A stretch of 29,427 nt of DNA, from positions 1-29,427 of IMG/VR virus record IMGVR_UViG_3300042547_000185; one strand, given 5' to 3'. The position numbers and the translations under genes were made by a program. Below the pieces are notes generated by a model. That model did no database searches. It was not told where the DNA came from and was given only the letters and a program-made list of their open reading frames with translations. This stretch comes from a virus. The first letter of the stretch is position 1. Each line of letters starts with the position of its first letter. This document shows positions 6,071 through 19,303 of the stretch, in pieces.

Positions 6071-6445
6071 TCAATTGTCATTAACGGATAACACAAAGTA
6101 TCCGTCTTCTCCTTTAGAGGCCCACTGCTTAGAAACATGTAGTGTAGTTATCTGAGAGTCATCGTCCCAGATCTTTCCATTCATTACATCTAAGACTGCC
6201 TTGGCAAAGTTGTCGATATCTGCCTTCGGCCATCCTCTTTCAGTGGTCTTGGGTCGCTTCACATATAGCTCTATGCTTACAGCTAACTCTCCAGAGAGAG
6301 GCGTAAAGTTACTACCAAGAACATCATACACAATACCCGTGGCTTCCTCTCGGAAATCCTTATAGGTTCCTGTGTAGTATGCGCCCCATTTACCAACCCG
6401 TGGCCGGGATGCGGCAACCGGATTGATATTAAACTTCCATTCCAT
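6071..6445 (-). CDS. RusA-like Holliday junction resolvase
   Basis: The 124-residue protein has the RusA family plan: an N-terminal strand leading into ASRPRVGKWG (about 12-21), then PKADIDNFAKAVLDVMNG with D76, D78 and K82, then KIWDDDSQI with D94 and D95. These acidic residues match the metal-binding aspartates of E. coli RusA. The enzyme cuts four-way junctions and so resolves recombination intermediates or trims branched concatemers before packaging. It takes the place held in T7 by gp3 endonuclease I, between SSB and the helicase. The start overlaps the SSB stop as TAATG. Confidence 0.92.
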   Translation of the reverse strand: MEWKFNINPVAASRPRVGKWGAYYTGTYKDFREEATGIVYDVLGSNFTPLSGELAVSIELYVKRPKTTERGWPKADIDNFAKAVLDVMNGKIWDDDSQITTLHVSKQWASKGEDGYFVLSVNDN

Positions 6446-6981
6446 TAGAAGGGAAGGTCTTCGTCCTCAGTCTCTTCGACTTCGGGCGCAGGCTTAGAAG
6501 CGACTGCGCCAACAAACCCACCATCAACAGCGTCAAACCCGCTGCTACCAGTGCCTGTCATATTGTTGGCATTCTTCTCAACGATCTGAATACCATTCAG
6601 ATACAGGCTAAGACTGTTATCACGGGACAAGACAGCGGGTGCAAGCTTGAGCCTGACCTTATCGCCACCGAATGGAACAGCATCAGTCTCAGTAGCCTGA
6701 GAGTCTACGCAGGGAAACTTGCCCTGCTCGACAAACACACGGCTCTTAGCCTTCAGAGTTTTGATGCCATCCTTCTCCATGATACCGTTGATCTTCTTAG
6801 CACCAGACTTCTTGAGCATGTCAGCAAGGGCTTTCTCAAGTGTCTTGGTAATCACAACAGTAATGTTATGATTGGCAGATGCCTCACCGAAAGCTGTGTC
6901 GGGCTTAAGTAGATTACTCCACTTAACATCGACAACCTCGGTAACAAACGGCGGCATCTTCTTCATCTTCTTATTAACCAT
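6445..6981 (-). CDS. Single-stranded DNA-binding protein (T7 gp2.5-like)
   Basis: This 178-residue protein has a basic N-terminus, a beta-rich body and an acidic tail EETEDEDLPF ending in phenylalanine, the layout of T7 gp2.5 (232 aa), whose tail contacts polymerase and helicase. The body includes KVRLKLAPAV and LYLNGIQIVE strands expected for an OB fold. A Gly/Ala/Pro-rich linker (about 140-165) joins body and tail. AAGGAAACC lies before the ATG. The position between RNA polymerase and endonuclease matches T7 gene order, which supports the assignment more than the weak sequence similarity does. Confidence 0.85.
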   Translation of the reverse strand: MVNKKMKKMPPFVTEVVDVKWSNLLKPDTAFGEASANHNITVVITKTLEKALADMLKKSGAKKINGIMEKDGIKTLKAKSRVFVEQGKFPCVDSQATETDAVPFGGDKVRLKLAPAVLSRDNSLSLYLNGIQIVEKNANNMTGTGSSGFDAVDGGFVGAVASKPAPEVEETEDEDLPF

Positions 6982-7156: not shown

Positions 7157-7186
7157 TTTAGTATCTCCTTTCTAATAAATAGATAT

Positions 7187-7205
7187 TATCTATAGCCCCA
7201 ACCAT
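7187..7205 (-). promoter_or_regulatory. Candidate phage RNA polymerase promoter, copy A
   Basis: The minus strand reads ATGGTTGGGGCTATAGATA in the only sizeable gap of this operon, just before the SSB cluster. It matches copy C near 15486 at 17 of 19 positions and copy B near 19303 at 15 of 19. The CTATAG core resembles the end of T7 and SP6 promoters, which would place the first transcribed G near 7190. The same gap holds two hairpins, CCAACC/GGTTGG and ATAGAT/ATCTAT. Promoter function is inference. Confidence 0.5.
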
Positions 7206-7217
7206 CGGGTTGGTTAT

Positions 7218-7874
7218 TCAAAGTTCCATCATTTCCATGTACGGCTTGCCATCAATGACAACACCGCAACTAATCACGGGCTTCTTGATATGGTCTTCGC
7301 CATACTTCATGGCAAGGTGCTTGCGGTCTACACCACAGCCGACATTCATTCCAAAGATTGCATGAAGCGGACTAACTTGCCAGTTGATTCCGGCGCAAGA
7401 GTGATGATGACCAGCAACCACAGAAATACCCATAGCTTTAGCAGTGTTAAAAGCAGGATACAAGCCGCCACCCCCAAGACCATGATAATAAAACACACCA
7501 TCAATAGTGATGTTCTTAATCCATTGCCAAGTTGTGTTATAAATTTCATTGAAACCTCTCAGATAAAAGTCAGGGATACCAGCATCACCAGCGATCCTTC
7601 GCACTCTATCATCGTGGTTGCCAATCGTGACAACTAAGTTCTTGAATGAACTCTTCCACTCTTTGATGCACTCTACTGCCTGCTTGTATTCACTTACAGC
7701 ACCGGGATGATCCGGGTGTTTAGTGTGGAATGAAATGCAATGGTGGTCAATGACATCACCGATATGCACAACACGATCACACTTGTATTCTTTCTTTACT
7801 TCCTTGACAAAAGAAAGGTAGCCGTCAAGCACGGCAGGAAAGTGAGTATCTCCAACAACTAATACCCTACTCAT
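7218..7874 (-). CDS. Calcineurin-like metallophosphoesterase
   Basis: The 218-residue protein carries the full set of metallophosphoesterase motifs: GDTHF at 8-12, GDVIDHH at 39-45, GNHDDR at 85-90, an HG pair at 131-132 and GHHHS at 155-159. These supply the Asp, His and Asn ligands for two metal ions. The family hydrolyses phosphomonoesters and diesters; phage members are suspected in nucleotide, RNA-end or DNA-end processing, but the substrate cannot be read from sequence. Its ATG overlaps the previous stop as ATGA. It is the last gene before the gap with candidate promoter A. Confidence 0.93.
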   Translation of the reverse strand: MSRVLVVGDTHFPAVLDGYLSFVKEVKKEYKCDRVVHIGDVIDHHCISFHTKHPDHPGAVSEYKQAVECIKEWKSSFKNLVVTIGNHDDRVRRIAGDAGIPDFYLRGFNEIYNTTWQWIKNITIDGVFYYHGLGGGGLYPAFNTAKAMGISVVAGHHHSCAGINWQVSPLHAIFGMNVGCGVDRKHLAMKYGEDHIKKPVISCGVVIDGKPYMEMMEL

Positions 7875-8062
7875 TTACGGTGTCTCCGTTTGTAATCTTC
7901 TTTCCATTGCTGTGCTATGGATGGCATGCCATTTGGCTGCGGTGCATAGACATCAACGATACCATCAAAGTGATCCTTCTGTGTCTGATTCCACGAATCA
8001 TACAGATCACCCCAACGCCAGCTCTTACCGTTAAGCATCTTGTTCGGTTTCCAGATCGTCAT
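7871..8062 (-). CDS. Small Trp-rich hypothetical protein, 63 aa
   Basis: The start at ATG 8062 follows AAGGAAG by eight bases; an upstream TTG in the same frame is less likely. The product begins MTIWKPNKMLNGKSWRWG, has several tryptophans and ends in a basic tail (KEDYKRRHRK) that could bind nucleic acid. The family is not recognised. It overlaps its upstream neighbour by 32 bases and its downstream neighbour by 4. Confidence 0.7.
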   Translation of the reverse strand: MTIWKPNKMLNGKSWRWGDLYDSWNQTQKDHFDGIVDVYAPQPNGMPSIAQQWKEDYKRRHRK

Positions 8063-8294
8063 CTTTGTCGCTTCCTTCAATGTAAATGTTAATGTTCATG
8101 TCAGGCTGAGGAGGAATATTCTTGAACGAGAAGTCTGTATAAGCAGCTCGTAAGAACATGTCGCTAAATTGTTCATTAGGAAACCAAAAGGAAATGTTCT
8201 TTCGTTTCTTTTTGGATGCGGCTAATTGAATGAACATCTTAACAGCTTCCTCCATAGCACCTTCGCTATTGACACGGTAGATCTTGCCTTTCAT
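8031..8294 (-). CDS. Hypothetical protein, 87 aa
   Basis: This protein starts MKGKIYRVNSEGAMEEAVKM, has a Lys-rich central turn (ASKKKRKN) and an acidic C-terminus (SDKDDDLETEQDA). Alternating beta and helix character suggests a small alpha/beta fold. The start overlaps the RNA polymerase stop as ATGA, so it is coupled to the polymerase gene. A regulator of the polymerase is conceivable from position only. Confidence 0.75.
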   Translation of the reverse strand: MKGKIYRVNSEGAMEEAVKMFIQLAASKKKRKNISFWFPNEQFSDMFLRAAYTDFSFKNIPPQPDMNINIYIEGSDKDDDLETEQDA

Positions 8295-10762
8295 TGGAAG
8301 AAGTACTCCGCATCAAGCACACGGTTTATATTGTACGAGCCAGTAGGTGGTGTCTCTGGTACATCAATGCCTAGTTTTGCTGAGACTTCATCTCGCATAA
8401 CATCAAGCAGATTCAATTGATGCATCTTGTGAAACTCTTCGTTGGTGTATGCTCTCATTAGATTAACATCGGGAGCAGGACAACCATACGAATCATGGAT
8501 CATACTAAACTGTGTAATACCTGAATCAATCATTCGTCTGATGGTAGACCACATATGACTCGCATCCAACGAGTGTATGTAGTTTGGAGAGATAGCCAAA
8601 TTAACTGAAGTTCCATCAATAGATTCCTTATCGGGTGAGCCAAAGTGTAACTCTTTCATGTCGAACAGCTTGGCTACTGAACGACGAGTCATAATCTCGT
8701 AGTACTGGTGGACAACCTTGAATCCACAAGGCGTAGTCCACTCAACATTCTTACCTGTCTCGCTAGCCATGTCAGCAACATGCTTAAGCCATGCCTTACC
8801 TTTGTTAGCCTCAACCAATGTACCCTTCAGAGCATCAAAGATAAAGGTAGCAAGCTCAGCCACAGCGCCAGCAATCTCTTCCTTACCTACCCAATCAAGG
8901 TGGCCTTCCGTCTTACAATATCTGCGAATACCGTAGAAGGTTACGCCATAGGGATCAGTCATCACAGCCCGTTTGCAAACAGACCGATCAATCTTGTCTC
9001 CCCAATGTTCAATGAATCGGGTAGCCCACCGCCCTTTGTTTGAGTCTTCATCTTTAACAGAAGCCATAGCCTCGCTCATCATATCAGCAGTATACTGATA
9101 CAGATCTTCTGGCTTGGTCACACTAACAAGGTTAACCTTCTTTGCCAGTACCTCGTCACGCATGAGAGCAGCCCAATGCTGCACACCATTGCATGATCCA
9201 TCCATCTGTACAGGAATCTGGGTAAGCCCATCGGTTCTGCATAGATCAAAGATGGCAGCGATACGCTGGAAACTAGGATTCTTTTTCTTCTTGTCTGACA
9301 CCCATAACTTGCGGTGTTCATATGGATCTTCATTGATACGCTTGAACATATCCATGTTGTCTTCGACCCACTTGACACGCTGATCAAAGGGAACTTTGTC
9401 TTGGTCAAATAGGTTGGCAACATGAACTTTAAGCCAGTACTTACCAGTTGGGGTTTGATTGCGTGGCTCAGCAAACATAATCAGACCACGATCAAAGTCT
9501 CCTGATTGTGGAGACAACAGATCACAGGCAGCATTAGCACGACCACGAAAGTCACATGTATAAATCTGGTAGAAGAACTTGTACTCGGCCAGTTGCTTGG
9601 CAAGCTGAAGCCTGACAAGCATACGACCACGCGATCTTTCTTCCTTGTACCATGAAGAGTATGCTTCCTCTTTCTTCTGACACCACTTGGCTTGCTCTTC
9701 CTTTGTTCCATCAGTTGGATAAGGATCGGCAAAGTCAAACGCTGAGAACTCATACGCTGGTAGGTTAGCATCTCTTGTGTTGTTCTTGAATAGATTCTCC
9801 ATCACTTCAAGTACCTTGGTATTGATGGCCCACTCAGTATGCATCAATGCATTAAGACCATCAATCACCACTTGAGATGGTGTACTACCACGCTGCACAA
9901 TCTTCTCATCCCACATCAAGTCTTTGAACTTCTGCACCACAGGCTTACGCACATAGGGCAGAAGATTACCACCACTATTGTCGATAGTGTGTGGCACAGG
10001 AGGCACAAGCATAGGACGGTACAGTAATGCAGCTTTAGCAATCACATCACGGTGTCGCTTATGCAACTCCTTAAGAATGTCATCAGTAAAGGAAACAACC
10101 ACACGCTCAGACCAACGCTTGCCAGTATGCTTTCTAATGTTCTTAAGCACGATGATCTCAGACATCTCAGCAATTCGTAGCATGTGGTGTCCGAAATCTT
10201 CTCGCTGCTTTCTAGTAAACTGTTTCTTATTGAGAGTACCTACCTTATATGCAAAGGCGCGACAACGCTTAGGTGTCCACTTCTTTTGGTAGTGCGACTG
10301 CTTCAACCAATCCTGCTTGAATTGTTTCTTAGCCTGCTGATATGCAACGATCTCAATCACCATCTCAGAAATAACATGGGCAATGTGCTGCGCTGTAGGC
10401 AATGGAAACAAATCATTCTCATACTTCCTGTCCCAGAGCGAGGCATTGAACCACTCAAGAATCAAAGCACGAACAGTAATGTCTGCCATCTTTGCTGCAC
10501 CAACGGCAAACAAAGGGAAGGCCCAATCAGGAGTCTTTCTATTCTGAGATACGGTATCAATCCATTGCTGATAGTAAGGGGTCAGGTGAATGACACACGC
10601 ATCCATTAGAGTCTGCTCAGGCAAACCCTCATCTGGATTGGCTTCATAGGTTTCCCAATACTTGCGCTCAGAAAGCACAAGCATATCTTCCTCACCAATT
10701 ACTTGTAGTTTAGTTCTATGTTCCTGTTCCTGCGGAGTCAGTTGTTCCCACATTCTTGGCAT
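8291..10762 (-). CDS. Single-subunit DNA-dependent RNA polymerase (T7 gp1-like)
   Basis: The 823-residue enzyme (T7: 883) transcribes phage genes from phage-specific promoters. Visible motifs, numbered from the chosen start: CDFRGRANA near 403-411 (T7 DWRGR), motif A QMDGSCNGVQHW with catalytic D521, motif B KRAVMTDPYG with K597 and Y605, HSLDASHM near 730, and motif C MIHDSYG with D757. Both catalytic aspartates and the O-helix Lys and Tyr are intact. ATG 10762 was chosen because AGGAGG lies seven bases upstream; a TTG eight codons earlier lacks that. The start lies 46 bases inside the previous gene. Its presence defines the phage as T7-supergroup. Confidence 0.97.
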   Translation of the reverse strand: MPRMWEQLTPQEQEHRTKLQVIGEEDMLVLSERKYWETYEANPDEGLPEQTLMDACVIHLTPYYQQWIDTVSQNRKTPDWAFPLFAVGAAKMADITVRALILEWFNASLWDRKYENDLFPLPTAQHIAHVISEMVIEIVAYQQAKKQFKQDWLKQSHYQKKWTPKRCRAFAYKVGTLNKKQFTRKQREDFGHHMLRIAEMSEIIVLKNIRKHTGKRWSERVVVSFTDDILKELHKRHRDVIAKAALLYRPMLVPPVPHTIDNSGGNLLPYVRKPVVQKFKDLMWDEKIVQRGSTPSQVVIDGLNALMHTEWAINTKVLEVMENLFKNNTRDANLPAYEFSAFDFADPYPTDGTKEEQAKWCQKKEEAYSSWYKEERSRGRMLVRLQLAKQLAEYKFFYQIYTCDFRGRANAACDLLSPQSGDFDRGLIMFAEPRNQTPTGKYWLKVHVANLFDQDKVPFDQRVKWVEDNMDMFKRINEDPYEHRKLWVSDKKKKNPSFQRIAAIFDLCRTDGLTQIPVQMDGSCNGVQHWAALMRDEVLAKKVNLVSVTKPEDLYQYTADMMSEAMASVKDEDSNKGRWATRFIEHWGDKIDRSVCKRAVMTDPYGVTFYGIRRYCKTEGHLDWVGKEEIAGAVAELATFIFDALKGTLVEANKGKAWLKHVADMASETGKNVEWTTPCGFKVVHQYYEIMTRRSVAKLFDMKELHFGSPDKESIDGTSVNLAISPNYIHSLDASHMWSTIRRMIDSGITQFSMIHDSYGCPAPDVNLMRAYTNEEFHKMHQLNLLDVMRDEVSAKLGIDVPETPPTGSYNINRVLDAEYFFQ

Positions 10763-11066
10763 TAGGCTTCCTCCTGTAAGGTTCAAGTTTCTTCTTTACA
10801 TAATCCAACACCGATGCGTAATACTGATCATCATGCAATTCCTTAGTCCAGATATCAAACCGAAGGTATTCGTGATATCTAAATTGTTCATGCATAAGAT
10901 CAAGCTCTTCATCTAACCTAGCCAATTCATCTAACGCCTTCTGTCCCTGCTCCCAATCAAGTCTAATCTTACGACAATGAGAACAGAGAGTATCAACAGG
11001 GTCTTGATAGGTAAAGCAACTACACTCATAGCTGCTTGGCTCAGGATGGTTTCTGTCAATGTACAT
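10716..11066 (-). CDS. Hypothetical protein with Cys pairs, 116 aa
   Basis: C15, C17, C28 and C31 near the N-terminus (ECSC and CSHC) could form a small zinc site. A strongly charged helical stretch follows (about 35-65, rich in Glu, Leu and Asp) and the tail is basic, then Thr/Gly-rich. The ATG has GAGGTG upstream and overlaps the previous stop by 11 bases. The C-terminus overlaps the RNA polymerase start by 47 bases in another frame. No known family is recognised; a zinc-binding adaptor is one possibility. Confidence 0.72.
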   Translation of the reverse strand: MYIDRNHPEPSSYECSCFTYQDPVDTLCSHCRKIRLDWEQGQKALDELARLDEELDLMHEQFRYHEYLRFDIWTKELHDDQYYASVLDYVKKKLEPYRRKPNAKNVGTTDSAGTGT

Positions 11067-11532
11067 TGTTAAACACCTCCACTACATACCAGTACGGGGT
11101 TTCGGTCTTAGTCCATGTAGCAATACGAGCCTTCTCATTCATGTAGTAATTACGGTAGGCAGACACAGCATCATTAGGATTCTTGTACTGATCTGGCATA
11201 GCCTGAGCAAAGGGAAGCAAGCCAAGGTCTAGTATGTTAGGCTTGTTTTGCCACGCCCATTCGATGACTTCAGTACTCTTGTGAATCTTATTATACCTGA
11301 AGGTGTACTCCCGTGCAAGTGCCAGCCCATGATGCACAAGCCAATCGTAATTACCCATGCTTGATCTAGTCCAGACAGCACAAGGATGGTTGTAGTGAGT
11401 ACGCTTATAAGGAGCAGTCTCATGGGCAGAGCATAGAAGCTGAGCCGTTTCAAGAACCATCTTAACCACATGCTTATCGCATTGGTACTTGGCCGCAAAC
11501 TCTGGACAATTATCAAGCACAAAGATATTCAT
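11056..11532 (-). CDS. Conserved phage protein with CDKHVVKM motif, 158 aa
   Basis: The N-terminus MNIFVLDNCPEFAAKYQCDK then HVVKMVLETAQLLCSAHE is a pattern I know from many phage proteins. Other conserved-looking parts are YNHPCAVWTRSSMGNYDWL, YTFRYNKIHKS and FAQAMPDQYK. Such proteins are mostly annotated as hypothetical, and I recall some labelled as pyrimidine-dimer DNA glycosylase-like, which I cannot confirm from the sequence. The many His, Cys, Trp and Tyr residues suggest an enzyme. The start overlaps the previous stop as TAATG. Confidence 0.85.
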   Translation of the reverse strand: MNIFVLDNCPEFAAKYQCDKHVVKMVLETAQLLCSAHETAPYKRTHYNHPCAVWTRSSMGNYDWLVHHGLALAREYTFRYNKIHKSTEVIEWAWQNKPNILDLGLLPFAQAMPDQYKNPNDAVSAYRNYYMNEKARIATWTKTETPYWYVVEVFNNVH

Positions 11533-11750
11533 TAGTCACCATCCTCAAGGGTTTCAAGAATGTCCATCTTACCAGATAACTTATAGTACACAGCGTTTAA
11601 CTCTTCCTGAAGATCAGCATAGGTAATATCTCCAGCAAATATACGACCCTTAATATCTAAGAGATCTGCAAGACAAGCATCAGTACTATTTAACAAATCA
11701 TAATAAAGCTTCTGATAATTAACAACCTTAGTCTTCTTCTTATTAGCCAT
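11532..11750 (-). CDS. Small hypothetical protein, 72 aa
   Basis: ATG 11750 follows AAGGAG by six bases and that Shine-Dalgarno overlaps the DUF932 gene stop. A TTG six codons upstream is possible but weaker. The protein has a Lys-rich start (MANKKKTKVV) followed by an amphipathic, probably all-helical body with LLDIKGRIFAG and an acidic end. It might pair with a partner through its helices. Function unknown. Confidence 0.75.
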   Translation of the reverse strand: MANKKKTKVVNYQKLYYDLLNSTDACLADLLDIKGRIFAGDITYADLQEELNAVYYKLSGKMDILETLEDGD

Positions 11751-11760
11751 AGTGTTCTCC

Positions 11761-12741
11761 TTAAGCAAGGGTTAGAGCGTACTTCATAACATCAATCGTG
11801 GTGTCCTGATTCTTACCCATGAGATTGCTATAAGCGGATGACTCAAAGGTAGGCTTCTTACCACGGGCAGGGATACGATGCTGAACCTCATTGGTAACAG
11901 CGTTAGCAGCAAGCCAGAGATTAGCAGTCGTGCTAAGCTGCTGCCGCTCAGTATCAAACACCTCAGCCCACTTAGCAATCGTAGTAGTAGCCTTCAGGTA
12001 GTTGGCATACTCAGACTCAGACTGAGGATTGGTAACGATAGGCTCCTCAATCATACCCCACACATCCATCCAGAACTTCTGAATGTCAGACTTAGTAAGC
12101 TCCTTGCGGACAAGCGTATCAACCTTCTCCTCAAACAGCTGGCCCGTCTTAGCATAGAACTTAAGGGCATCAGCCATAGCATCCTGCTTCTTCTTCATAT
12201 CACCAGTATGCACGATGCGGAAAGACTTCTTCATACCCGCAGCCATAGCCATGCTCAGAGTATTCTGACACACGATACGCACACTAGTAGGAAGGGCAGA
12301 CATGGCAAGCGTACCATCATGGCTATTGATGAGAGCCATATACTTCTCAATCGGATCGCGCCCACCAGCCCCATGCATAGTACCAGTACGGCAAAGGACA
12401 ACCAGACGGCGACCACCATTCATAGACAGCGCAGACTCAACCTGAATCTTGTCACCAAGATGATAGGCCATGTCAAACACTTCACTATTCTGGATGATCT
12501 TGTAGTCAGGAGACTGGATCGACAGGATAGTATTGGTATTACCACGCACAATAGCATTGTACTCATCAGACTCAGCATCACCCGCACTAACAGGGCCAAC
12601 CTTAAAGACATCCCAATTAAGACCAGCAATATTCATAGCCTCGGTCGGAGACATCTCCTCATTAATCACAACGCCAAGCCCGTGCCATGCAGCCTCCTTA
12701 TGAAAGACTGCGCCATCAGTATCCGTAATATTGTGAGCCAT
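11761..12741 (-). CDS. DUF932 family protein
   Basis: The 326-residue protein shows the DUF932 (phage/plasmid-like, TIGR03299-type) features: the opening with WHGLG (about 19-23), a middle part with MNGGRRLVVLCRTG, ALINSHDGTLAMSALPTSVR and VCQNTLSMAM, and a helical C-terminal half. Members are widespread on phages and plasmids but their biochemical role is not established. AAAGGAAAC lies before the ATG. The codon set is more G+C-rich than in the middle of the giant gene. It is a large gene placed between early small genes and RNA polymerase. Confidence 0.9.
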   Translation of the reverse strand: MAHNITDTDGAVFHKEAAWHGLGVVINEEMSPTEAMNIAGLNWDVFKVGPVSAGDAESDEYNAIVRGNTNTILSIQSPDYKIIQNSEVFDMAYHLGDKIQVESALSMNGGRRLVVLCRTGTMHGAGGRDPIEKYMALINSHDGTLAMSALPTSVRIVCQNTLSMAMAAGMKKSFRIVHTGDMKKKQDAMADALKFYAKTGQLFEEKVDTLVRKELTKSDIQKFWMDVWGMIEEPIVTNPQSESEYANYLKATTTIAKWAEVFDTERQQLSTTANLWLAANAVTNEVQHRIPARGKKPTFESSAYSNLMGKNQDTTIDVMKYALTLA

Positions 12742-12750
12742 TAGTTTCCT

Positions 12751-12888
12751 TTAATAGGTATCATCTTCATCGTAGCGACCATGACGATCATTGTCGCGTA
12801 CCTTACTCCGCTTATAAGGATCAAGCCGTGGTTTCTTGGGCTTGTCCTTGTCCACACTCTTTTCGGTTTTCTTTTTCTGCTCGCTCAT
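12751..12888 (-). CDS. Lysine-rich disordered small protein, 45 aa
   Basis: This short frame begins MSEQKKKTEKSVDKDK and ends RHGRYDEDDTY; 15 of 45 residues are Lys or Arg, mostly in the first two thirds. It is likely disordered and could bind nucleic acid. The start at ATG 12888 lies 68 bases inside the end of the preceding gene in another frame, an unusually long overlap, and its Shine-Dalgarno (AGAG) is weak, so confidence is moderate. Confidence 0.5.
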   Translation of the reverse strand: MSEQKKKTEKSVDKDKPKKPRLDPYKRSKVRDNDRHGRYDEDDTY

Positions 12889-13108
12889 AGTCACTCTGTA
12901 AGTAGTAAAGAACCATGCTAAGGTTATTGATGTCATTCTTGGTAAGCTTCTGCTGCTTAATGCAAGTAAAGCCCATCTCCCCATCCATCTTTATGAGAGA
13001 CAAGGCAACCTCAATCTCACCCGTAGTAATGTTCTTACTCAAGATACCCTGCATAATGCAGTAGTCATTCACATCACCAACAGTCTGCGTTCTCGTAGAG
13101 ATAATCAT
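12821..13108 (-). CDS. Hypothetical protein, 95 aa
   Basis: ATG 13108 follows AAGGA by five bases; a TTG extension upstream is unlikely. The first 60 residues look like a beta-rich fold (MIISTRTQTVGDVNDYCIMQ then GEIEVALSLIKMDG), followed by a helix (NDINNLSMVLYYLQSDYERA) and a polar tail. Not recognised. The 3' end overlaps the next small gene. Confidence 0.7.
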   Translation of the reverse strand: MIISTRTQTVGDVNDYCIMQGILSKNITTGEIEVALSLIKMDGEMGFTCIKQQKLTKNDINNLSMVLYYLQSDYERAEKENRKECGQGQAQETTA

Positions 13109-13122
13109 GTAGTTCCTTTTGT

Positions 13123-13497
13123 TTACCACCAACCCACAACAAAACCGTTATGTTCCTTGACAGTATTAAACCATGCGTACAAAGCCTTCACCTCAGCAAC
13201 AGTAACACAGTACTCGTAGAAGTAATTCATATCATTGTAATCCTTGTGACTATCCTTGTCATAGGAATCAATGATGTTCTTGAGTGAGTCAACAATCATA
13301 TTGAGATCCTCGTTAGACATCTTCTCGGTATACAAAGTCACGCCTGAGATTGACTCAATAAAACTATTGTATACCTTACCTCTGAAGGAGGAGCCACCAC
13401 CACTAAACATACCACCGCAAAGATGAATACAACTCTCGGGAAACAAAGTATCAGCCATCGGTTCCTTATCTACATACGCATAAGTATCAAGACCCAT
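13123..13497 (-). CDS. Conserved phage protein starting MGLDTYAY, 124 aa
   Basis: The start MGLDTYAYV, the central CGGMFSGGGSSFRGKVYNSF segment (about 27-46) and the end with GFVVGWW form a pattern that I recall from small proteins of marine and soil phages annotated as hypothetical. AAAGGATTG precedes the ATG. The Gly/Ser-rich loop followed by FRGKxY could bind phosphate, but this is speculation. It is the first protein gene after the tRNA cluster. Confidence 0.8.
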   Translation of the reverse strand: MGLDTYAYVDKEPMADTLFPESCIHLCGGMFSGGGSSFRGKVYNSFIESISGVTLYTEKMSNEDLNMIVDSLKNIIDSYDKDSHKDYNDMNYFYEYCVTVAEVKALYAWFNTVKEHNGFVVGWW

Positions 13498-13516
13498 TAC
13501 AATCCTTTCTAAAGAG

Positions 13517-13589
13517 TGGGCCGGGAGAGACTTGAACTCTCAACCAATTGATTAAAAGTCAACTGCTCTACCTATTGAGCTACCAGCCC
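13517..13589 (-). tRNA. tRNA-Lys (UUU)
   Basis: The full cloverleaf can be folded by eye. The acceptor is GGGCTGG with CCGGCCC (one G-U pair) and discriminator A, the D-stem is GCTC/GAGC, the anticodon stem is GTTGA/TCAAT with loop CTTTTAA, and the T-arm is GAGAG-TTCAAGT-CTCTC. The anticodon TTT reads AAA and AAG. CCA is not encoded. Confidence 0.95.
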
Positions 13590-13591
13590 AA

Positions 13592-13664
13592 TAGCATCGG
13601 TGGGAGTCGAACCCACACTTGGTCGATTTTAAGTCGAGTGTCTCTGCCATTGGACTACGATGCC
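13592..13664 (-). tRNA. tRNA with UAA anticodon (Leu by anticodon), class I shape
   Basis: The acceptor is GGCATCG with CGATGCT and discriminator A; the T-arm is GTGGG-TTCGACT-CCCAC. The anticodon loop CTTAAAA gives anticodon TAA, which reads the leucine codon UUA. The D-stem is short (GTC/GAC), the outer anticodon pair is C opposite C, and the variable loop has only five bases. Bacterial leucine tRNAs normally have a long variable arm, so aminoacylation identity is uncertain. Confidence 0.8.
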
Positions 13665-13792
13665 GTAAAGTATAAGACCCATCAGAACTTATACTCCTAG
13701 TTTAATCATGTCCTTTATTTTATGATACCTTGGCGGGTTGAAAGTCGCGCTGTATATCATAACGCATGAGGGATTTGTTGGTCTACAAGGAA
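13665..13792. other. 128-base spacer inside the tRNA cluster with two perfect inverted repeats
   Basis: No gene or complete tRNA is visible. Two 7-base perfect inverted repeats occur: GTATAAG/CTTATAC at 13670-13694 and TATGATA/TATCATA at 13721-13761, the second enclosing a G+C-rich 27-base loop. The tRNA genes on either side are spaced by 2 and 5 bases from their other neighbours, so this gap stands out. It may hold a small RNA, a decayed tRNA or processing signals. Confidence 0.4.
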
Positions 13793-13866
13793 CATCCCTG
13801 ATAGGGATCGAACCTATAGCCTATGACTTAGAAGGTCATTGCTCTATCCAATTGAGCTACAGGGAC
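13793..13866 (-). tRNA. tRNA-Arg (UCU)
   Basis: The acceptor is GTCCCTG with CAGGGAT (first pair G-U) and discriminator G. The D-arm is GCTC/GAGC, the anticodon stem is ATGAC/GTCAT with loop CTTCTAA, and the T-arm is ATAGG-TTCGATC-CCTAT. The anticodon TCT reads AGA and AGG. All arms pair well. Confidence 0.95.
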
Positions 13867-13871
13867 AAACA

Positions 13872-13947
13872 TGGAAGGGGCGGGAGTTGCACCCACATAT
13901 TCACGCTTATAAGGCATGCGCTCTATCTACTTTTCAGCCACCCTTCC
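13872..13947 (-). tRNA. tRNA-Ile (UAU)
   Basis: The acceptor GGAAGGG pairs perfectly with CCCTTCC and the discriminator is A. The anticodon stem is CATGC/GCGTG with loop CTTATAA, so the anticodon TAT reads AUA. The T-stem is GTGGG/CCCGC; its loop TGCAACT has G where the near-universal second T is expected. The D-stem has three good pairs. The fold is otherwise sound. Confidence 0.85.
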
Positions 13948-13953
13948 AGTAGA

Positions 13954-14154
13954 TTACTTCTTCTTACTCTTGATACCGGGGATAACCTTCTCCCTCTGCA
14001 TCTTAATCTGCTTCTCAAGCAGCGTACAATAGTTAGACAGACCAGTAATCCGATCCTTAATGATATCCATCTCCTTGGTAATCATCCACACCATGAACCA
14101 CATGGTAGCACCAAGAATAACAAACAGAACAAAAGCAAAGGTAGTGTCAGACAT
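13954..14154 (-). CDS. Small membrane protein with cytoplasmic-type helix, 66 aa
   Basis: Residues 6-25 (FAFVLFVILGATMWFMVWMI) form one clear membrane span. A charged amphipathic helix follows (about 26-55) and the protein ends in a basic tail KSKKK. AAGGAG lies six bases before the ATG. A single span plus helix resembles spanin-like or membrane-anchored inhibitor proteins, but position among early genes argues against a lysis role. Function unknown. Confidence 0.8.
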   Translation of the reverse strand: MSDTTFAFVLFVILGATMWFMVWMITKEMDIIKDRITGLSNYCTLLEKQIKMQREKVIPGIKSKKK

Positions 14155-14164
14155 TTAAATCTCC

Positions 14165-14395
14165 TTAATCGTCTTCGTCGTTTTCGTTTGGCAGATCTTC
14201 CCATTCCTCAACGGGAGTCTGTTCGTACTCATACTGTTCCCATTCATCGGGAATACAGTCGATGAGTGCATCTCCAATAATCTCTTCCATATCCTCAACC
14301 CATTCAATGAAGTCGGACTGTGGAATCCTACTCGCATCAATCTCAAATCCATTAAGCCAATCCTTCCAGTAAGTAAAGACTGCGGTATCATTCAT
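14165..14395 (-). CDS. Extremely acidic small protein, 76 aa
   Basis: Twenty-six of 76 residues are Asp or Glu and only two are Lys or Arg; five tryptophans are also present. The acidic residues are spread throughout and concentrate in the tail (WEDLPNENDEDD). This composition is seen in DNA-mimic proteins such as T7 Ocr (gp0.3), though no sequence similarity is evident. The ATG overlaps the preceding stop as TAATG. An overlapping frame of 78 codons was rejected. Antirestriction or another DNA-mimic role is only a suggestion. Confidence 0.8.
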   Translation of the reverse strand: MNDTAVFTYWKDWLNGFEIDASRIPQSDFIEWVEDMEEIIGDALIDCIPDEWEQYEYEQTPVEEWEDLPNENDEDD

Positions 14396-14769
14396 TAGAT
14401 TACCCGCACTTCCACATTACAATCGGACACAGCATTCTCAATCAGCTCACGAACATTGTCGTTGACATTATCCTCAACGATATAGTTGAAGGTATCAGAG
14501 TCAACATAGTCACGGACAACCTGCTCACATGCATCCTTAACCATAGTGTTAATCTCCTTACGGAAATCATCTGTGTTAATGGCATCAAGCACCATCTTAG
14601 TAATGGTATCTCCAACAGTAGACTCAACCTTAGTAGCAATCTGATCGGTAATAAGATTGGTAATCAGCTCAGCCATCTCCTGCTTAGTAGCATAGTTAGC
14701 AAACTTCATACGCTGTTCGATCTTCTCATACAACAGGTCAACAAGGATAGCAGTAGTATCGGTAGACAT
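14395..14769 (-). CDS. Helical hypothetical protein, 124 aa
   Basis: The protein appears all-helical, with regular hydrophobic spacing in AILVDLLYEKIEQRMKFA, ELITNLITDQIATKV and TITKMVLDAI, then an acidic second half (VRDYVDSDTFNYIVEDNVND). No membrane span or catalytic motif is visible. It may oligomerise. Start and stop overlap neighbours by one base in TAATG form. Confidence 0.8.
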   Translation of the reverse strand: MSTDTTAILVDLLYEKIEQRMKFANYATKQEMAELITNLITDQIATKVESTVGDTITKMVLDAINTDDFRKEINTMVKDACEQVVRDYVDSDTFNYIVEDNVNDNVRELIENAVSDCNVEVRVI

Positions 14770-14984
14770 TAGCAGTAAGCCTCAACAAGATGTTCAAGGG
14801 AATCAATCATAAGTTCCTCTTCATCGGTAAGCCAATACCGATTAAAGGTACGCTGGTCAAACTCATTCAACATTTCAATAGCCTTGTCCCGCTTCTCTGA
14901 ATCATCAATCCAAAGAAAGAACTTATCATGCACCTCACTAATGAAGGAGACATCATCACTAACAAAGAAGGTACTAGGTTTCAC
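14769..14984 (-). CDS. Hypothetical protein, 71 aa, GTG start
   Basis: The start codon is GTG at 14984, overlapping the previous TGA by four bases (GTGA), so translational coupling is likely. The product begins MKPSTFFVSDDVSFISEVHD and is acidic and helical (EMLNEFDQRTFNRYW). It resembles its neighbours in charge but no family is recognised. Confidence 0.7.
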   Translation of the reverse strand: MKPSTFFVSDDVSFISEVHDKFFLWIDDSEKRDKAIEMLNEFDQRTFNRYWLTDEEELMIDSLEHLVEAYC

Positions 14985-15211
14985 TTTGATTCTCTCTTGA
15001 TAAAGAGTTTCTCTTCCGTTGCAATGATAGGCGACAACTTATTCAACTCATACTCCATGTAATCAGGGAGATCCTCAATGGGATTACCATGATCCACCAA
15101 AGTAAAGTAGCCCATGAGACTACGATCTTCAATCATCTCTTGCAGCACATCATAAAGTAACTGCTGCTGACTATCATCCTCAACCTCAATCAGCATAATC
15201 AATCTCTTCAT
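14981..15211 (-). CDS. Hypothetical protein, 76 aa
   Basis: ATG 15211 follows AAGGAGAG and was preferred to an upstream in-frame start that lies deep inside the previous gene. The protein begins MKRLIMLIEVEDDSQQQLLY, looks alpha/beta and has an acidic middle (GNPIEDLPDYMEYEL). The first strand LIMLIEVE is followed by a helix, as in small ferredoxin-like folds. Function unknown. Confidence 0.75.
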   Translation of the reverse strand: MKRLIMLIEVEDDSQQQLLYDVLQEMIEDRSLMGYFTLVDHGNPIEDLPDYMEYELNKLSPIIATEEKLFIKRESK

Positions 15212-15446
15212 TAGGCTCTCCTTCATAGGGGGTTGTGGCATTGTAGCCGTTGTCAAGACAATGATTCTCTAGATAAGACTTGAGTGTACCAATGGGAATG
15301 AAATCATCAGGCTCAACACATTCAATAAATAGGTTATCAAAGATCCATTCATCATCTTCAATAATCCATACAATACTATACTCAACCTTAATCAAACCAT
15401 AGTCTTCATGGTTAAACTCTAGATAGTGTTTGTTTGTTCGCTTCAT
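15186..15446 (-). CDS. Hypothetical protein, 86 aa
   Basis: ATG 15446 with AAGGTG upstream sits about 25 bases after the proposed start point of candidate promoter C. The protein is beta-rich and acidic (LIKVEYSIVWIIEDDEWIFD), with an acidic, Pro-containing tail. It overlaps the next gene by 26 bases. No family is recognised. Confidence 0.78.
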   Translation of the reverse strand: MKRTNKHYLEFNHEDYGLIKVEYSIVWIIEDDEWIFDNLFIECVEPDDFIPIGTLKSYLENHCLDNGYNATTPYEGEPNEEIDYAD

Positions 15447-15456
15447 AGGGTTCACC

Positions 15457-15576
15457 TTACTGATCTGTATCAGTAGCCCCAACCATTCGGCAGAGGGTAG
15501 TTAGTGCAAGTGCGGGAGTTTCAAACGCTCCGATAGTCAGCCAATATGGTGCATCAGGAGTTATTACTTGAACCAT
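15457..15576 (-). CDS. Possible 39-aa protein
   Basis: The segment from ATG 15576 reads MVQVITPDAPYWLTIGAFET and ends CRMVGATDTDQ, which looks like a natural alpha/beta peptide and fills an otherwise empty gap. Its Shine-Dalgarno is poor, and the frame stays open upstream through the preceding gene, so the start is uncertain. The last ten codons coincide with candidate promoter C. Confidence 0.45.
   Translation of the reverse strand: MVQVITPDAPYWLTIGAFETPALALTTLCRMVGATDTDQ
15468..15486 (-). promoter_or_regulatory. Candidate phage RNA polymerase promoter, copy C
   Basis: The minus strand reads ATGGTTGGGGCTACTGATA, identical to copy A except for two bases in the middle. It lies within the 3' end of the possible 39-aa gene and about 22 bases before the ATG of the 86-aa gene. 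The first transcribed G would be near 15471. Because it may be coding, the match could be chance, but 17 of 19 is high. Confidence 0.4.
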
Positions 15577-15748
15577 GTAGATCAGACTGTCGTTCAGAAA
15601 GGTTGGCATAATTTGGATTTGTATACCACGCTCCATATACATGGGCATCCATGTTGTCTCTAAATCCGGTGATAGATTGGCCGTTGACATAGACCATAAA
15701 CCAGATGCCGTCATAGTCATGCTCCTTCTTAACGATAAACTTAGTCAT
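15554..15748 (-). CDS. Hypothetical protein, 64 aa
   Basis: ATG 15748 has AGGAAG upstream and starts 8 bases before the end of the preceding gene. The product begins MTKFIVKKEHDYDGIWFMVY and has NGQSITGFRD followed by an aromatic, Asn-rich tail. The first 35 residues look like three beta strands. Function unknown; the style matches other small early proteins. Confidence 0.75.
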   Translation of the reverse strand: MTKFIVKKEHDYDGIWFMVYVNGQSITGFRDNMDAHVYGAWYTNPNYANLSERQSDLHGSSNNS

Positions 15749-15881
15749 CGAATGCTTCCTCAATAGTCCAGTTGTCACCGATACGCTTTAGGTTAAGCAT
15801 AAGTTCATCAATAACATCATCAGCAAAAGCTGAACTAGAGTTACCAACCTCGGGATAATCAAAGACAACGACAACTTTCAT
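15741..15881 (-). CDS. Small acidic protein, 46 aa
   Basis: This gene is shorter than usual cut-offs. It begins MKVVVVFDYPEVGNSSSAFA, a strong beta strand then a loop, and ends in an acidic helix (DNWTIEEAFDD). The ATG overlaps the previous stop as TAATG and the stop lies 5 bases inside the next gene, so it fits the tight spacing of the operon exactly. Unknown function. Confidence 0.72.
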   Translation of the reverse strand: MKVVVVFDYPEVGNSSSAFADDVIDELMLNLKRIGDNWTIEEAFDD

Positions 15882-16072
15882 TAGATATCTCCATCCTCAA
15901 TAAAGGGAATCTCATCATCCTCATCATCCTCATAGTCCTCTACATGGTATGCATCGGGACATGAATCATAAAGACGGGGATCATGCTCACCCTCATAGGA
16001 ATCATACTCAAACCTCTGCTCATAGATCTCATCAGGATCAGGGTAATACTCACGCTCACATGAAGATGACAT
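15881..16072 (-). CDS. Extremely acidic Tyr-rich protein, 63 aa
   Basis: Of 63 residues, 25 are Asp or Glu and 3 are Arg; there is no Lys, and eight Tyr. A run at 45-54 reads EDYEDDEDDE. GGAGG lies seven bases before ATG 16072, one of the best ribosome sites here, suggesting high expression. The start overlaps the preceding gene by 17 bases. The composition fits a DNA mimic or charged inhibitor of a host DNA-binding enzyme. Low complexity makes family assignment impossible. Confidence 0.8.
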   Translation of the reverse strand: MSSSCEREYYPDPDEIYEQRFEYDSYEGEHDPRLYDSCPDAYHVEDYEDDEDDEIPFIEDGDI

Positions 16073-16382
16073 CGTTAACCTCCTCAATGGTATACATGAC
16101 AGTCTCTTGGTGTAACGAATCCTTGATAAGACTAATGTAGAATGCAATCATTCCTTCAATAGTCTTAGCATCGGTGATGGTATAGATAGCCCACACCTTA
16201 TCACGCATGACAATACCACGGTCATTCATCCAGTATCCATTCACATCAACGATACTACAACCATTAAAGTTACGGGTCATAGCACCAATGATTTCCTTGC
16301 GAATGTTATCTGCAATGTGATACGATCCGGGCGTATCATCGTTGTCATGCTTCGGTAAATAGATAGTGTGCTTGTACTTCAT
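16056..16382 (-). CDS. Hypothetical protein, 108 aa
   Basis: The protein starts MKYKHTIYLPKHDNDDTPGS and contains IVDVNGYWMNDRGIVMRDKVWAIYTITD in two pieces, followed by a hydrophobic helix (TIEGMIAFYISLI). It looks like a compact alpha/beta protein. The ATG overlaps the prior stop as TAATG. I recognise no family; several phages carry similar small early proteins of unknown role. Confidence 0.78.
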   Translation of the reverse strand: MKYKHTIYLPKHDNDDTPGSYHIADNIRKEIIGAMTRNFNGCSIVDVNGYWMNDRGIVMRDKVWAIYTITDAKTIEGMIAFYISLIKDSLHQETVMYTIEEVNDVIFM

Positions 16383-16615
16383 TAGTATACCTCCGAAGAT
16401 TGTTCAACACTAGACCTAGACCAACGCTCTCCACAACAATCGCAATCATAGTTTGTAGTAAACCAAGGCTGCTTAGTGAGTGCATCCCAAGCATCGTCTT
16501 CATTACGGGCAGTAACAGTAAACTCAACAGGCCCAATGAAATACCCAAAGCTATTGTTCTGTCGGAATGTCCAGTTATAGTACGAAAGTTTCGACCAGTA
16601 ATCAGTATCCTTCAT
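16382..16615 (-). CDS. Hypothetical protein with CDCC motif, 77 aa
   Basis: ATG 16615 was chosen because AAAGGA precedes it; an upstream alternative start lacks a site. The protein begins MKDTDYWSKLSYYNWTFRQN, has a beta-type core (GYFIGPVEFTVTARNEDDAW) and then YDCDCCGERW. Three close cysteines could contribute to a metal site. The central part resembles a small domain with a strand, the Asp-Asp-Ala-Trp turn and a helix. Function unknown. Confidence 0.75.
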   Translation of the reverse strand: MKDTDYWSKLSYYNWTFRQNNSFGYFIGPVEFTVTARNEDDAWDALTKQPWFTTNYDCDCCGERWSRSSVEQSSEVY

Positions 16616-16629
16616 GTCGATTTCCTTTC

Positions 16630-16869
16630 TTAGGAATACCACCTACGCGAAGCCTCACCCATCACATCGTTATAGTAGTTAAGGTTCTGCTCAGTAAGGA
16701 TATCATCCTCGTCTGTATCTTCAGGCTCAAGTGTAAACTCCAAGCACTCAACCAAAACATTAGAGCCGGGATTCTTCATCGCATACTCAACGGCACTACG
16801 ATTGGCCTCATACTTAGTGTCAAACCATGCCACACTATTACCGTTCACGACCACATGATACTCAAACAT
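16630..16869 (-). CDS. Hypothetical protein, 79 aa
   Basis: Begins MFEYHVVVNGNSVAWFDTKY, followed by a helix (EANRSAVEYAM) and an acidic second half. The strand-turn-helix start is similar in plan to the 77-aa and 54-aa neighbours, so the three may be diverged copies. The start overlaps the preceding stop as TAATG. Confidence 0.78.
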   Translation of the reverse strand: MFEYHVVVNGNSVAWFDTKYEANRSAVEYAMKNPGSNVLVECLEFTLEPEDTDEDDILTEQNLNYYNDVMGEASRRWYS

Positions 16870-17033
16870 TACTTGTTCTCCTTGTCAGAAGCACCAAAGA
16901 TGATACCAAGGATAGTGCTATCACGATAGAACAAAGAGATAGCCCGCTTAGCCTCGGTATCGTTATACGAATACACAAGATGGTTATACATTTCGTCGTT
17001 AGCCAACACAACAGTCACATCAAAGGGCTGCAT
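16869..17033 (-). CDS. Small hypothetical protein, 54 aa
   Basis: The frame starts MQPFDVTVVLANDEMYNHLV, contains the helix TEAKRAISLFYRD and ends with a hydrophobic strand then ASDKENK. It overlaps both neighbours by one base (TAATG on each side) and is therefore almost certainly translated. Its strand-helix plan resembles the 79-aa product that follows. Unknown function. Confidence 0.75.
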   Translation of the reverse strand: MQPFDVTVVLANDEMYNHLVYSYNDTEAKRAISLFYRDSTILGIIFGASDKENK

Positions 17034-17119
17034 TACTTGATCTCCTTATTCTCTTGGACGGAAACAACGAGAGCATACAGAAACAGAACACCAATCACCC
17101 CACCAATCAGCTCAAACAT
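17033..17119 (-). CDS. 28-aa membrane micropeptide
   Basis: The peptide starts MFELIGGVIGVLFLYALVVS and ends in a short charged tail. Nearly the whole peptide is one membrane span. CGGAGGAAC lies upstream at good spacing, and the stop overlaps the next ATG as TAATG, both of which support translation. It may act on a host membrane protein or on membrane potential; nothing more can be said. Confidence 0.65.
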   Translation of the reverse strand: MFELIGGVIGVLFLYALVVSVQENKEIK

Positions 17120-17133
17120 TAGAGTTCCTCCGA

Positions 17134-17415
17134 TTAGATGTTGATGTTAGTCCACTTGATATTCGCCTGCTCATTCCTCAGACGAATAATCTCACGCTCC
17201 AACTCACCAATCCTATCCTCGTAAGCACGGATAAGACTAGCATCCGTATGACACAACTTCTCATAGTTCCCCGCAACAACAGAAAGTCTAGTGAGAATCC
17301 CAAGCATATTCTCATAGTTATGCTTGGCCGTGTCATTGGTAAGGCTGTCAAACGAAACCTTGGAAAGAGTTTCGGACATAGCCTTAGCCTTAACAATCGT
17401 GGTGCTATTGTACAT
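17134..17415 (-). CDS. Helical, coiled-coil hypothetical protein, 93 aa
   Basis: The C-terminal half has a strong heptad-like helix (RAYEDRIGELEREIIRLRNE, about 64-83). The N-terminal half is also helical, with hydrophobic residues spaced for packing. The ATG at 17415 follows GGAAGGATAAGC; a small CCGGC/GCCGG hairpin (17428-17440) sits directly in front of that ribosome site. Coiled-coil dimerisation is likely; function unknown. Confidence 0.78.
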   Translation of the reverse strand: MYNSTTIVKAKAMSETLSKVSFDSLTNDTAKHNYENMLGILTRLSVVAGNYEKLCHTDASLIRAYEDRIGELEREIIRLRNEQANIKWTNINI

Positions 17416-17465
17416 TGCTTATCCTTCCCGGCATAGCCGGATGAGAGAAAGAAATCAGACGGAAA

Positions 17466-17495
17466 GGTATACCATAGGTTTCCCTACGGTATACC
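17466..17495 (-). repeat. 13-base-pair hairpin with GAAA loop between early genes
   Basis: On the minus strand GGTATACCGTAGG pairs with CCTATGGTATACC around a GAAA tetraloop, with a single G-T position. Three T residues follow. It lies 8 bases after the 103-aa gene stop. T7 early mRNA is cut by RNase III at intergenic hairpins; this could be such a site or a weak terminator. Confidence 0.75.
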
Positions 17496-17503
17496 GTGAT
17501 GGC

Positions 17504-17815
17504 TTAGATTGAAGCCGCAATCAACGCAACGCTATTGTCGGGAACCTTAGTTTCGCTAATGATCGTCCGATCAAAGCGAACCGGGATCGGATCGTTCGCG
17601 GGATTCTTCGCCACATAGATCGACGGACGATCCTTGCATTCCCGCTCCGCATAGCGGATACCGTACTTGGCGCGGAGGGCATTCATGCAGGCCGCATAGG
17701 GCGCACCGGAAACCTTCATCAGATAGTCGGCTGCGATAGCCGCATCAGCAAGGGTTCCCGTGGTACGGGCGCGCTTCACATAGTCCGTGAGGACCGTCAC
17801 TTGGAAACTTTGCAT
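17504..17815 (-). CDS. G+C-rich early hypothetical protein, 103 aa
   Basis: The protein begins MQSFQVTVLTDYVKRARTTG, with a helical Ala-rich middle (LADAAIAADYLMKVSGAPYAACMNALRAKYG in overlapping helices) and a Pro-containing basic centre (RPSIYVAKNPANDP). GGAG precedes the ATG. Its codons are much richer in G and C at the third position than those of genes farther downstream. Hairpins flank it on both sides. Unknown function; likely among the first proteins made. Confidence 0.8.
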   Translation of the reverse strand: MQSFQVTVLTDYVKRARTTGTLADAAIAADYLMKVSGAPYAACMNALRAKYGIRYAERECKDRPSIYVAKNPANDPIPVRFDRTIISETKVPDNSVALIAASI

Positions 17816-17845
17816 GGCTTTCTCCGGGTTAGGTGCGAACGGATA

Positions 17846-17883
17846 GACGCTAGGATACCCCCCGTGAGGGATACCCTAGCGTC
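17846..17883 (-). repeat. 16-base-pair hairpin between the first two early genes
   Basis: GACGCTAGG pairs with CCTAGCGTC (9 perfect pairs), continued inward by GTATCCC with GGGGTAT (two G-T positions), around a TCACGG loop. It fills the gap between the 147-aa and 103-aa genes. No T-run follows, so RNase III processing or mRNA stabilisation fits better than termination. Confidence 0.8.
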
Positions 17884-17909
17884 TACCCCTTGCGGGATAG
17901 ACGGATAGG

Positions 17910-18353
17910 TTAGATCTCCAGAGTGGCGAGGATAGCCGCCGGGATATCCTGCCGCCGCTTAGCGGGAGCGGAAACCGTGCGCTCAAAGTTGAGCGTAGGG
18001 AAAGTCTCGCGGAGATACGCGGTGGCGTATTCCATGTACTGTGCAGCGGCAGGCGTAGCCTCAATACCCTTCGACTCATTACCACGCCAGCGGAAACCGT
18101 ACTCAATAACTCGACCTTCATCATCCTTGATATCTTCCATCATAATGTTATCCTTCCCGCAAAGGATGCTAGTCATCGGATAGCCGCCGTACTTATTGGT
18201 GCAACCGACAACCTTATACACGGCAGCGTGATCCATGATCGACGCAAAGTTACGGGCGTCCACCTTGCCCGTATCCGTCAACTTCAGATTGTCGTTGAAC
18301 GCGGCGGCAAAGTTGCAAGCGACAGCGACGCGGCGGAAAGTAGCGTAGTCCAT
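17910..18353 (-). CDS. First early gene: G+C-rich hypothetical protein, 147 aa
   Basis: This is the first gene after the long noncoding block. It starts MDYATFRRVAVACNFAAAFN, and the middle holds YKVVGCTNKYGGYPMTSILC and EYGFRWRGNESKG. The C-terminal part has an Ala/Tyr-rich helix and a basic stretch (APAKRRQD). AAAGG lies before the ATG. Base composition is strikingly G+C-rich. No family is recognised. Position suggests a role in the first minutes of infection, like the T7 gene 0.3 region, but homology to it is not seen. Confidence 0.82.
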   Translation of the reverse strand: MDYATFRRVAVACNFAAAFNDNLKLTDTGKVDARNFASIMDHAAVYKVVGCTNKYGGYPMTSILCGKDNIMMEDIKDDEGRVIEYGFRWRGNESKGIEATPAAAQYMEYATAYLRETFPTLNFERTVSAPAKRRQDIPAAILATLEI

Positions 18354-19093
18354 TGTAACCTTTGGTAAACTTGCGAATCCGATAGCCTACGCGGCTAGCG
18401 GCTAGGCGCACATTCGCGGGAATGTACCCTAGCCGATACCCTACGATCCAAAGTGACGCGCCTTACTCCGGTTGCAGAGGCTAGGGCGGAAAGGTTAGAA
18501 AGAAGGCAGGGTATCGGACGAAGTTTAGAATCAGCGGCGTTTACTCACCTACTCGCATTGTAGGTAGCCGTGTGGCGCGGTTATTGCAAACCCGCGTCCA
18601 CCCAAACCCGTGCGGCGCATCGGGTCGATCCTTACTTTCGCTATCCGTTCCTGCGCCACTAGCAAGGTACTGCGCGAGGACCAAACTTCCGGGCCGGATA
18701 GTTCCCGTAGGGAACCTGCCCCAATCAGACCGGGGGCAGAACGCGGTTAGAATGTCAAAGACTCCGACATTCGGGGGGGTTCCCGGCGGAGAAACTTGCA
18801 GCCTCGGCCACTAGGGTCCGATAACGCCCTCCCCCCGGCCATAGGTTATCGGCGGGGGTCGCGTAGGGGGGCACGGGGGGAACCTAAGACCCCCTTTTGG
18901 GGGGATACCCCTTTGCTAATTTCTGACCCCTAAGTCGATTTCTTAAAACACTTACAAGAATCCCAAAAGGCTTACCGGGGAGGCCCACAGCTTTAAACCG
19001 CTTATAGGGGGATTTTGGGTTGGGATGGTCCTTGGTCCCCTTCGGTCTAACCGGAGCTGTCTCCGGGCATCGTAGGCGAAATAAACAAGGGTT

Positions 19094-19114
19094 AAAACCG
19101 GGGGGAAACCCCGG
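19094..19114 (-). terminator. Hairpin followed by four T, possible late terminator
   Basis: On the minus strand CCGGGG, loop TTTCC, CCCCGG is followed by TTTT. Six G-C pairs make a stable stem. It lies about 190 bases after the giant gene stop and could end late transcription. The short T-run keeps confidence moderate. Confidence 0.55.
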
Positions 19115-19177
19115 AGTGCGGTGATCGACAAGGGATCACCTTTGTTGTTATTATTGTTGTATTAATAACTAAAGAAT

Positions 19178-19207
19178 CCCCTAGGTTCCACTTAAGGAAC
19201 CTAGGGG
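19178..19207 (-). repeat. Perfect 12-base-pair inverted repeat
   Basis: CCCCTAGGTTCC pairs perfectly with GGAACCTAGGGG around a six-base loop. On the minus strand it is followed by ATTCTTTAG, a poor T-run, so it may be a weak terminator, an RNA-processing site or a protein-binding site. The word CCTAGGGG recurs at 19262 and inside the last codons of the giant gene. Confidence 0.75.
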
Positions 19208-19284
19208 TGTATAGGTTAGCAAAGACAATACAAAACCTAAATTCAAACTATAGGGGATATCCTAGGGGTTAACCTATGGTATAT

Positions 19285-19303
19285 CTTCCATAGCCCCAAC
19301 TAT
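19285..19303 (-). promoter_or_regulatory. Candidate phage RNA polymerase promoter, copy B
   Basis: The minus strand reads ATAGTTGGGGCTATGGAAG, 15 of 19 positions identical to copy A, and begins within the stop codon of the giant gene. Its end CTATGGAAG resembles the CTATAGAAG of the SP6 promoter. It points into the noncoding block and early genes. A CTATGG/CCATAG hairpin overlaps it. Confidence 0.45.

Follow-up and report, generated by a model that had tools for sequence, protein, structure and literature searches.

A recurrent 23-bp motif is the probable promoter of a T7-type RNA polymerase in a group of related phages

Introduction

Promoters of the T7 type are laid out as a recognition part from -17 to -5 and an initiation part from -4 to +6, and positions -4, -3, -1 and +1 are conserved in other phage promoters (PMC13029058). 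The T7 consensus promoter itself reads TAATACGACTCACTATAG (quoted in PMC10134795). The phage-specific promoters of Pseudomonas phage LUZ100 have been mapped by cappable-seq (PMC10134795), and those of EM1, which was found in a metagenome, have been tested in vitro (PMC9596486, PMC6834552).

We analysed an entire virus record of 29,427 bp (the window), in which an earlier note had pointed to three copies of a 19-base motif as possible promoters of the phage's own RNA polymerase. The motif does not match the canonical T7 consensus, since its recognition half differs, and the GTTGGGG specificity part is indeed distinct from that of T7, as the note had proposed. The likeness to T7 that it saw in the start half is also present, the initiator of one copy (CTATAG in copy A) matching the start half of the T7 promoter.

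Results

The three copies are found at 7205-7187, 15486-15468 and 19303-19285 (copies A, B and C, respectively), with GTTGGGGCTA exact in each, and all lie, as claimed, in the direction of coding and transcription (minus strand). When up to one mismatch was allowed, GTTGGGGCTA occurred at six sites in the window, all on the minus strand, against 1.5 expected, and one of 100 shuffles reached six. A 17-base form, searched with a tolerance of three mismatches, gave four sites against 0.41 expected, a number seen in none of 100 shuffles. A 23-column matrix, from whose training the window and its >95% relatives were left out, scored the three copies at 34.1, 34.0 and 31.4, compared to a maximum of 23.7 across 100 order-2 Markov windows. 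The conserved block is longer than first described, and extends over 23 bp from -19 to +4 (Table 1).

The predicted +1 of copy A lies 34 nt upstream of the ATG (7156) of the SSB/replication cluster, and that of copy B lies 25 nt upstream of the ATG (15446) that opens the 86-aa gene. Both genetic neighbourhoods had been described correctly, with a 60-aa gene and the SSB behind copy A and the 86-aa gene directly behind copy B. The placing of copies in the main noncoding gaps was only partly right. Copy B falls within the 3'-terminal part of an ORF upstream of the 86-aa gene (15457-15720, reading ...MVGATDTDQ and then stop), and copy C, the first site of the early region, overlaps the stop codon (19302-19300) of a 3271-aa ORF, so that neither is purely noncoding. 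This long ORF (19300-29115, minus strand) is the last of the virion genes, and searches of PHROG, Pfam and the PDB gave no match to it. Between early genes, at 13516-13948 (minus strand), lie four tRNA genes, for Lys, Leu, Arg and Ile. A motif-like stretch, CCCTAAAGTTGG(G/A)GCTACTA, is seen at 273-251 (minus strand) within coding sequence and is kept in the relatives L121, L130, L142, L169 and L178; it is probably a coding coincidence.

Table 1. Positions of the putative promoters and associated features in the window.
Feature	Coordinates	Strand	Details
Gp2.5-like SSB	6445..6981	-	in cluster behind copy A
Palindrome ATAGAT-AAT-ATCTAT	7179..7193	-	about -3 to +12, over predicted start of copy A
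Copy A, putative phage RNA polymerase promoter	7187..7209	-	CCCGATGGTTGGGGCTATAGATA, -19 to +4; predicted +1 = G at 7190
T7-type single-subunit RNA polymerase, proposed cognate enzyme	8291..10786	-	831 aa; profile and PDB matches
86-aa gene	15186..15446	-	directly behind copy B
Copy B, putative phage RNA polymerase promoter	15468..15490	-	CCGAATGGTTGGGGCTACTGATA; predicted +1 = G at 15471
Strong terminator-like hairpin	19178..19207	-	stem of 12 pairs; follows copy C by about 80 nt
Copy C, putative phage RNA polymerase promoter	19285..19307	-	CCCAATAGTTGGGGCTATGGAAG; predicted +1 = G at 19288

The register of the motif was taken from 40 distinct sites, and since these were representatives picked from sites already selected with the matrix, their profile serves to describe the motif and is not, taken alone, proof of it. 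Information content is high from -19 to +4, sharply bounded, and close to background outside. T-4, A-3, G-9, G-6 and C-5 are each present in 40 of 40 sites, while +1 is G in 37 and A in three, and -1 is A in 18, T in 17 and G in five. The motif can be divided into CC-N-NATR (-19 to -13), the core GTTGGGG (-12 to -6) and the initiator CTANNG(A) (-5 to +2). If the G of CTANNG is +1, positions -16 to -13 make up an A/T-containing part and T-4 A-3 lie in the melting region, and T7-type promoters show the same placing of A/T part, specificity core and melting region (PMC13029058, PMC10138996).

Searches with the RNA polymerase for relatives gave 15 loci, and then 77 loci. In relatives whose polymerase is 64-99% identical, the block stands at the same gene boundaries and strong matches are found exclusively on the coding strand, with mostly three to five strong sites in each near-complete genome. 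Site C is at the late/early junction, after the last virion gene; site B is ahead of the small early genes; site A is ahead of the 60-aa gene and the SSB/replication genes; and a further site, D, which lies beyond this window, is ahead of the genes for dUTPase and class II ribonucleotide reductase and of the portal/virion genes. Among the core genes that T7-like phages (Autographiviridae) share, matches were noted only for the RNA polymerase, primase-helicase, DNA polymerase and SSB; the genomes measure about 66 kb and contain a 3271-aa ORF. A reversed-pattern control gave zero matches in 15 records, and a scan of all IMG/VR with a 21-bp pattern gave 65 stretches, all but about four from this phage group as assigned by eye from their contexts. 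A lack of enrichment elsewhere had been named beforehand as what would refute the promoter proposal, and the outcome was the opposite: dozens of related contigs carry the motif in synteny, and its strong matches are confined to one strand. No close relative was found among the sequenced phages searched or in GTDB genomes.

A de novo 12-mer search, which recovers the motif in the clade with 80% polymerase identity, gave nothing comparable in the 47-52% clade, so that the promoter code can be claimed for the inner group only. In L076, a phage of the 50% clade, hairpins of the form GTCCCC-TTCG/TAAG/TAAC-GGGGAC are found repeatedly in intergenic positions (e.g. just upstream of 10001), among them the one ahead of the RNA polymerase gene, and are possibly that clade's own signal.

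The proposed cognate enzyme matches PF00940 (E 2.8e-83), phrog_414 (E 5.7e-148) and the T7 RNA polymerase in the PDB (E about 1e-53), which bears out the statement that the phage encodes a T7-type polymerase. Its specificity hairpin is located at about residues 697-716 (EIMTRRSVAKLFDMKELHFG). An AlphaFold model was dropped (pLDDT 61, with most of the specificity loop below 50). Comparison across the relatives showed that the loop RRS(V/I)(A/T)KLF(D/N)MKEL(H/Y/N)FG goes with a core around GGGG at -9 to -6. The core is GTTGGGG in the clades with 80-99%, 67% and 64% polymerase identity. In the 72% clade, positions -12 to -10 vary (GCTGGGG, GTCGGGG, GGTGGGG, CTTGGGG) and -7 is A in some sites, and residues 706 and 710 are unchanged. 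The substitution D709N was considered as a cause of this looser core and rejected, as N709 occurs with GTTGGGG too.

One lineage, represented by L015 and L016, has switched its core. The polymerase hairpin here reads RRSVSRLFDTKELHFG, site A reads CCCAATAAATGTAGCTATAGATA and site D reads CCGAATATATGTAGCTATAGATA, so that GTTGGGG has become AATGTAG at A and TATGTAG at D while the flanks are kept at both sites. The polymerases of this lineage are changed at only six of 368 positions that are invariant in 34 other RNA polymerases, and two of the six changes, K706R and M710T, are among the 20 residues of the specificity hairpin (P = 0.016, from one lineage and two polymerase sequences). Site C on G031, a contig of the switched lineage that does not include the polymerase gene, reads GATGGGG and shares only the change of T to A at -11, indicating that the core switch is incomplete. 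What the sequences show is a change in both the core and the loop tip of the polymerase in a single lineage, one event in all. Seven contigs with CCCAATAAATGTAGCTAATGA (L108, L109, L112, L114, L117-L119) looked initially like another switched C site; they were excluded, because in the three examined the site belongs to another virus, where a nearby gene encodes a large unrelated protein.

The terminator-like hairpin that follows copy C raises the possibility that site C has a role different from normal early expression, for example in making a leader RNA or starting replication, which is speculation. The stretch of about 930 nt from copy C to the next gene (18354-19285, minus strand) has no evident gene, reaches up to 55% G+C, and contains strong hairpins, and parts of it are kept in relatives. 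Within this noncoding leader past the last virion gene, AATCGACTTAGGGGTCAGAAATT is present once in the window (18918-18940, minus strand), and near-identical copies, one per locus, are found in phages whose RNA polymerase is only about 50% identical, making this element a candidate for a packaging site, an origin or the end of the genome.

Discussion

The three copies and the corresponding sites in relatives are very probably promoters of the phage's own T7-type RNA polymerase, with a new specificity, as suggested by their synteny, their strand exclusivity, and, in one lineage, a change of the core alongside that of the polymerase loop tip. Copy B does lie in a coding frame and weak matches elsewhere, such as that at 273-251, are coding, but none of 100 Markov windows scored like the copies in the window and the conservation is syntenic, leaving chance or coding coincidence with a negligible probability. 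Repetition upstream of operons would also be expected of sites for another regulator, or for host polymerase guided by an alternative sigma factor. We regard this as highly improbable, given that the motif agrees with T7-type promoters in length, register and initiator, that the core changes in the one lineage whose polymerase has a changed specificity loop, and that sigma-70-like sites are not enriched in the region (16 vs 25.5 expected).

A structured RNA element in the transcript, controlling translation, stability or processing, would make the shared sequence a part of the structure, and CCCAA-TAG-TTGGG can pair in copy C of the window. However, this 5' stem is fully paired in only 13 of the 40 sites, pairing is lost without compensation elsewhere (G faces G at -17/-9 in 14 sites), and the stem is gone from the switched lineage, where the flanks are conserved. 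What is conserved in the 5' half is the primary sequence, not pairing. The RNA element offered as an alternative in the earlier note is thus rejected for this half, and survives in part at site A, where all 12 distinct sites have a stem of 5-8 bp (G-U allowed) from about -4 to +13, spanning the start, against 1.8 expected after shuffling, and show compensated changes (TAGA/TCTA, CAGA/TCTG, CTGA/TCAG). This 3' hairpin is absent from all eight D sites and from most C sites, so the palindrome is not part of the general motif, and an RNA element is very unlikely to explain the motif itself. A separate palindrome at A could instead be added to a promoter that is present everywhere, acting in read-through RNA (in the control of processing or translation ahead of the replication genes) or as DNA. 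We consider this extension, which does not exclude the promoter reading, a serious possibility that falls short of an even chance: the A sites keep their pairing despite sequence change and the D sites lack it, but most of the stems reach upstream of the predicted start, so that a transcript initiated at +1 would include just half of such a stem, one A site (in the L200 clade) pairs only with the help of G-U, and weak stems arise easily in AT-rich sequence.

If the sites are promoters of the phage polymerase, we infer its binding, the exact start and the timing from sequence as follows. The host polymerase would first make some phage RNA polymerase, which would then read from C, at the late/early junction, into the early region, and from B through early genes toward the polymerase gene itself, providing positive feedback. 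Reading from A would yield the SSB and replication genes, and reading from D the dUTPase, class II ribonucleotide reductase and virion genes. Transcription would start at the G of the initiator, or at A in a few copies.

These sites provide a probable transcription map for a group of phages found repeatedly in IMG/VR, without a close relative among the sequenced phages searched, as well as a new polymerase-promoter pair for orthogonal expression. A natural pair of polymerases, about 80% identical and with different cores, carries the loop differences A705S, K706R and M710T and makes the reading of DNA by the specificity loop directly testable. The broader proposal of an uncultivated family of ~66-kb phages with its own GTTGGGG code, a natural specificity switch owed to a few residues at the loop tip and, ahead of the replication genes, a composite A site with a compensated, start-spanning palindrome is tentative, and on balance unlikely to hold in full.

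Like the promoters of the T7 family (T7, T3, SP6 and K11), the sites described here are about 23 bp in length, have an AT-containing upstream part, specificity near -12 to -6, T-4 A-3 and G+1, and lie on the coding strand ahead of operons in a genome that encodes a single-subunit RNA polymerase. They differ in that GTTGGGG replaces the T7 specificity sequence and CCNNATR replaces TAATA, in the variation at -2 and -1, and in their number, three to five copies in about 66 kb. The virion RNA polymerase of N4 uses hairpin promoters, and close to some of the copies here the sequence also allows a short hairpin. Unlike in N4, this hairpin is not kept as pairing (13 of 40 5' stems; absent in the switched lineage), and the polymerase is an ordinary T7-type chain, the 3271-aa protein being without an RNA polymerase match. 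EM1 and KP34 resemble the present system as polymerase-promoter pairs defined outside the T7 core group (PMC9596486, PMC6834552), and differ in sequence (EM1 TCAGAAGTCACACTATAA) and genome type. Judged by both coverage and identity, the polymerase of LUZ100 is the closest relative in the phage collection. Here the specificity part, ATTACCACACAG, is different, the polymerase is only 28% identical and the genome is 37 kb, but the LUZ100 promoters, ATTACCACACAGGTATGGA, have TATGGA in common with copy C, with an identical TATGGA(AGA) around the start (PMC10134795).
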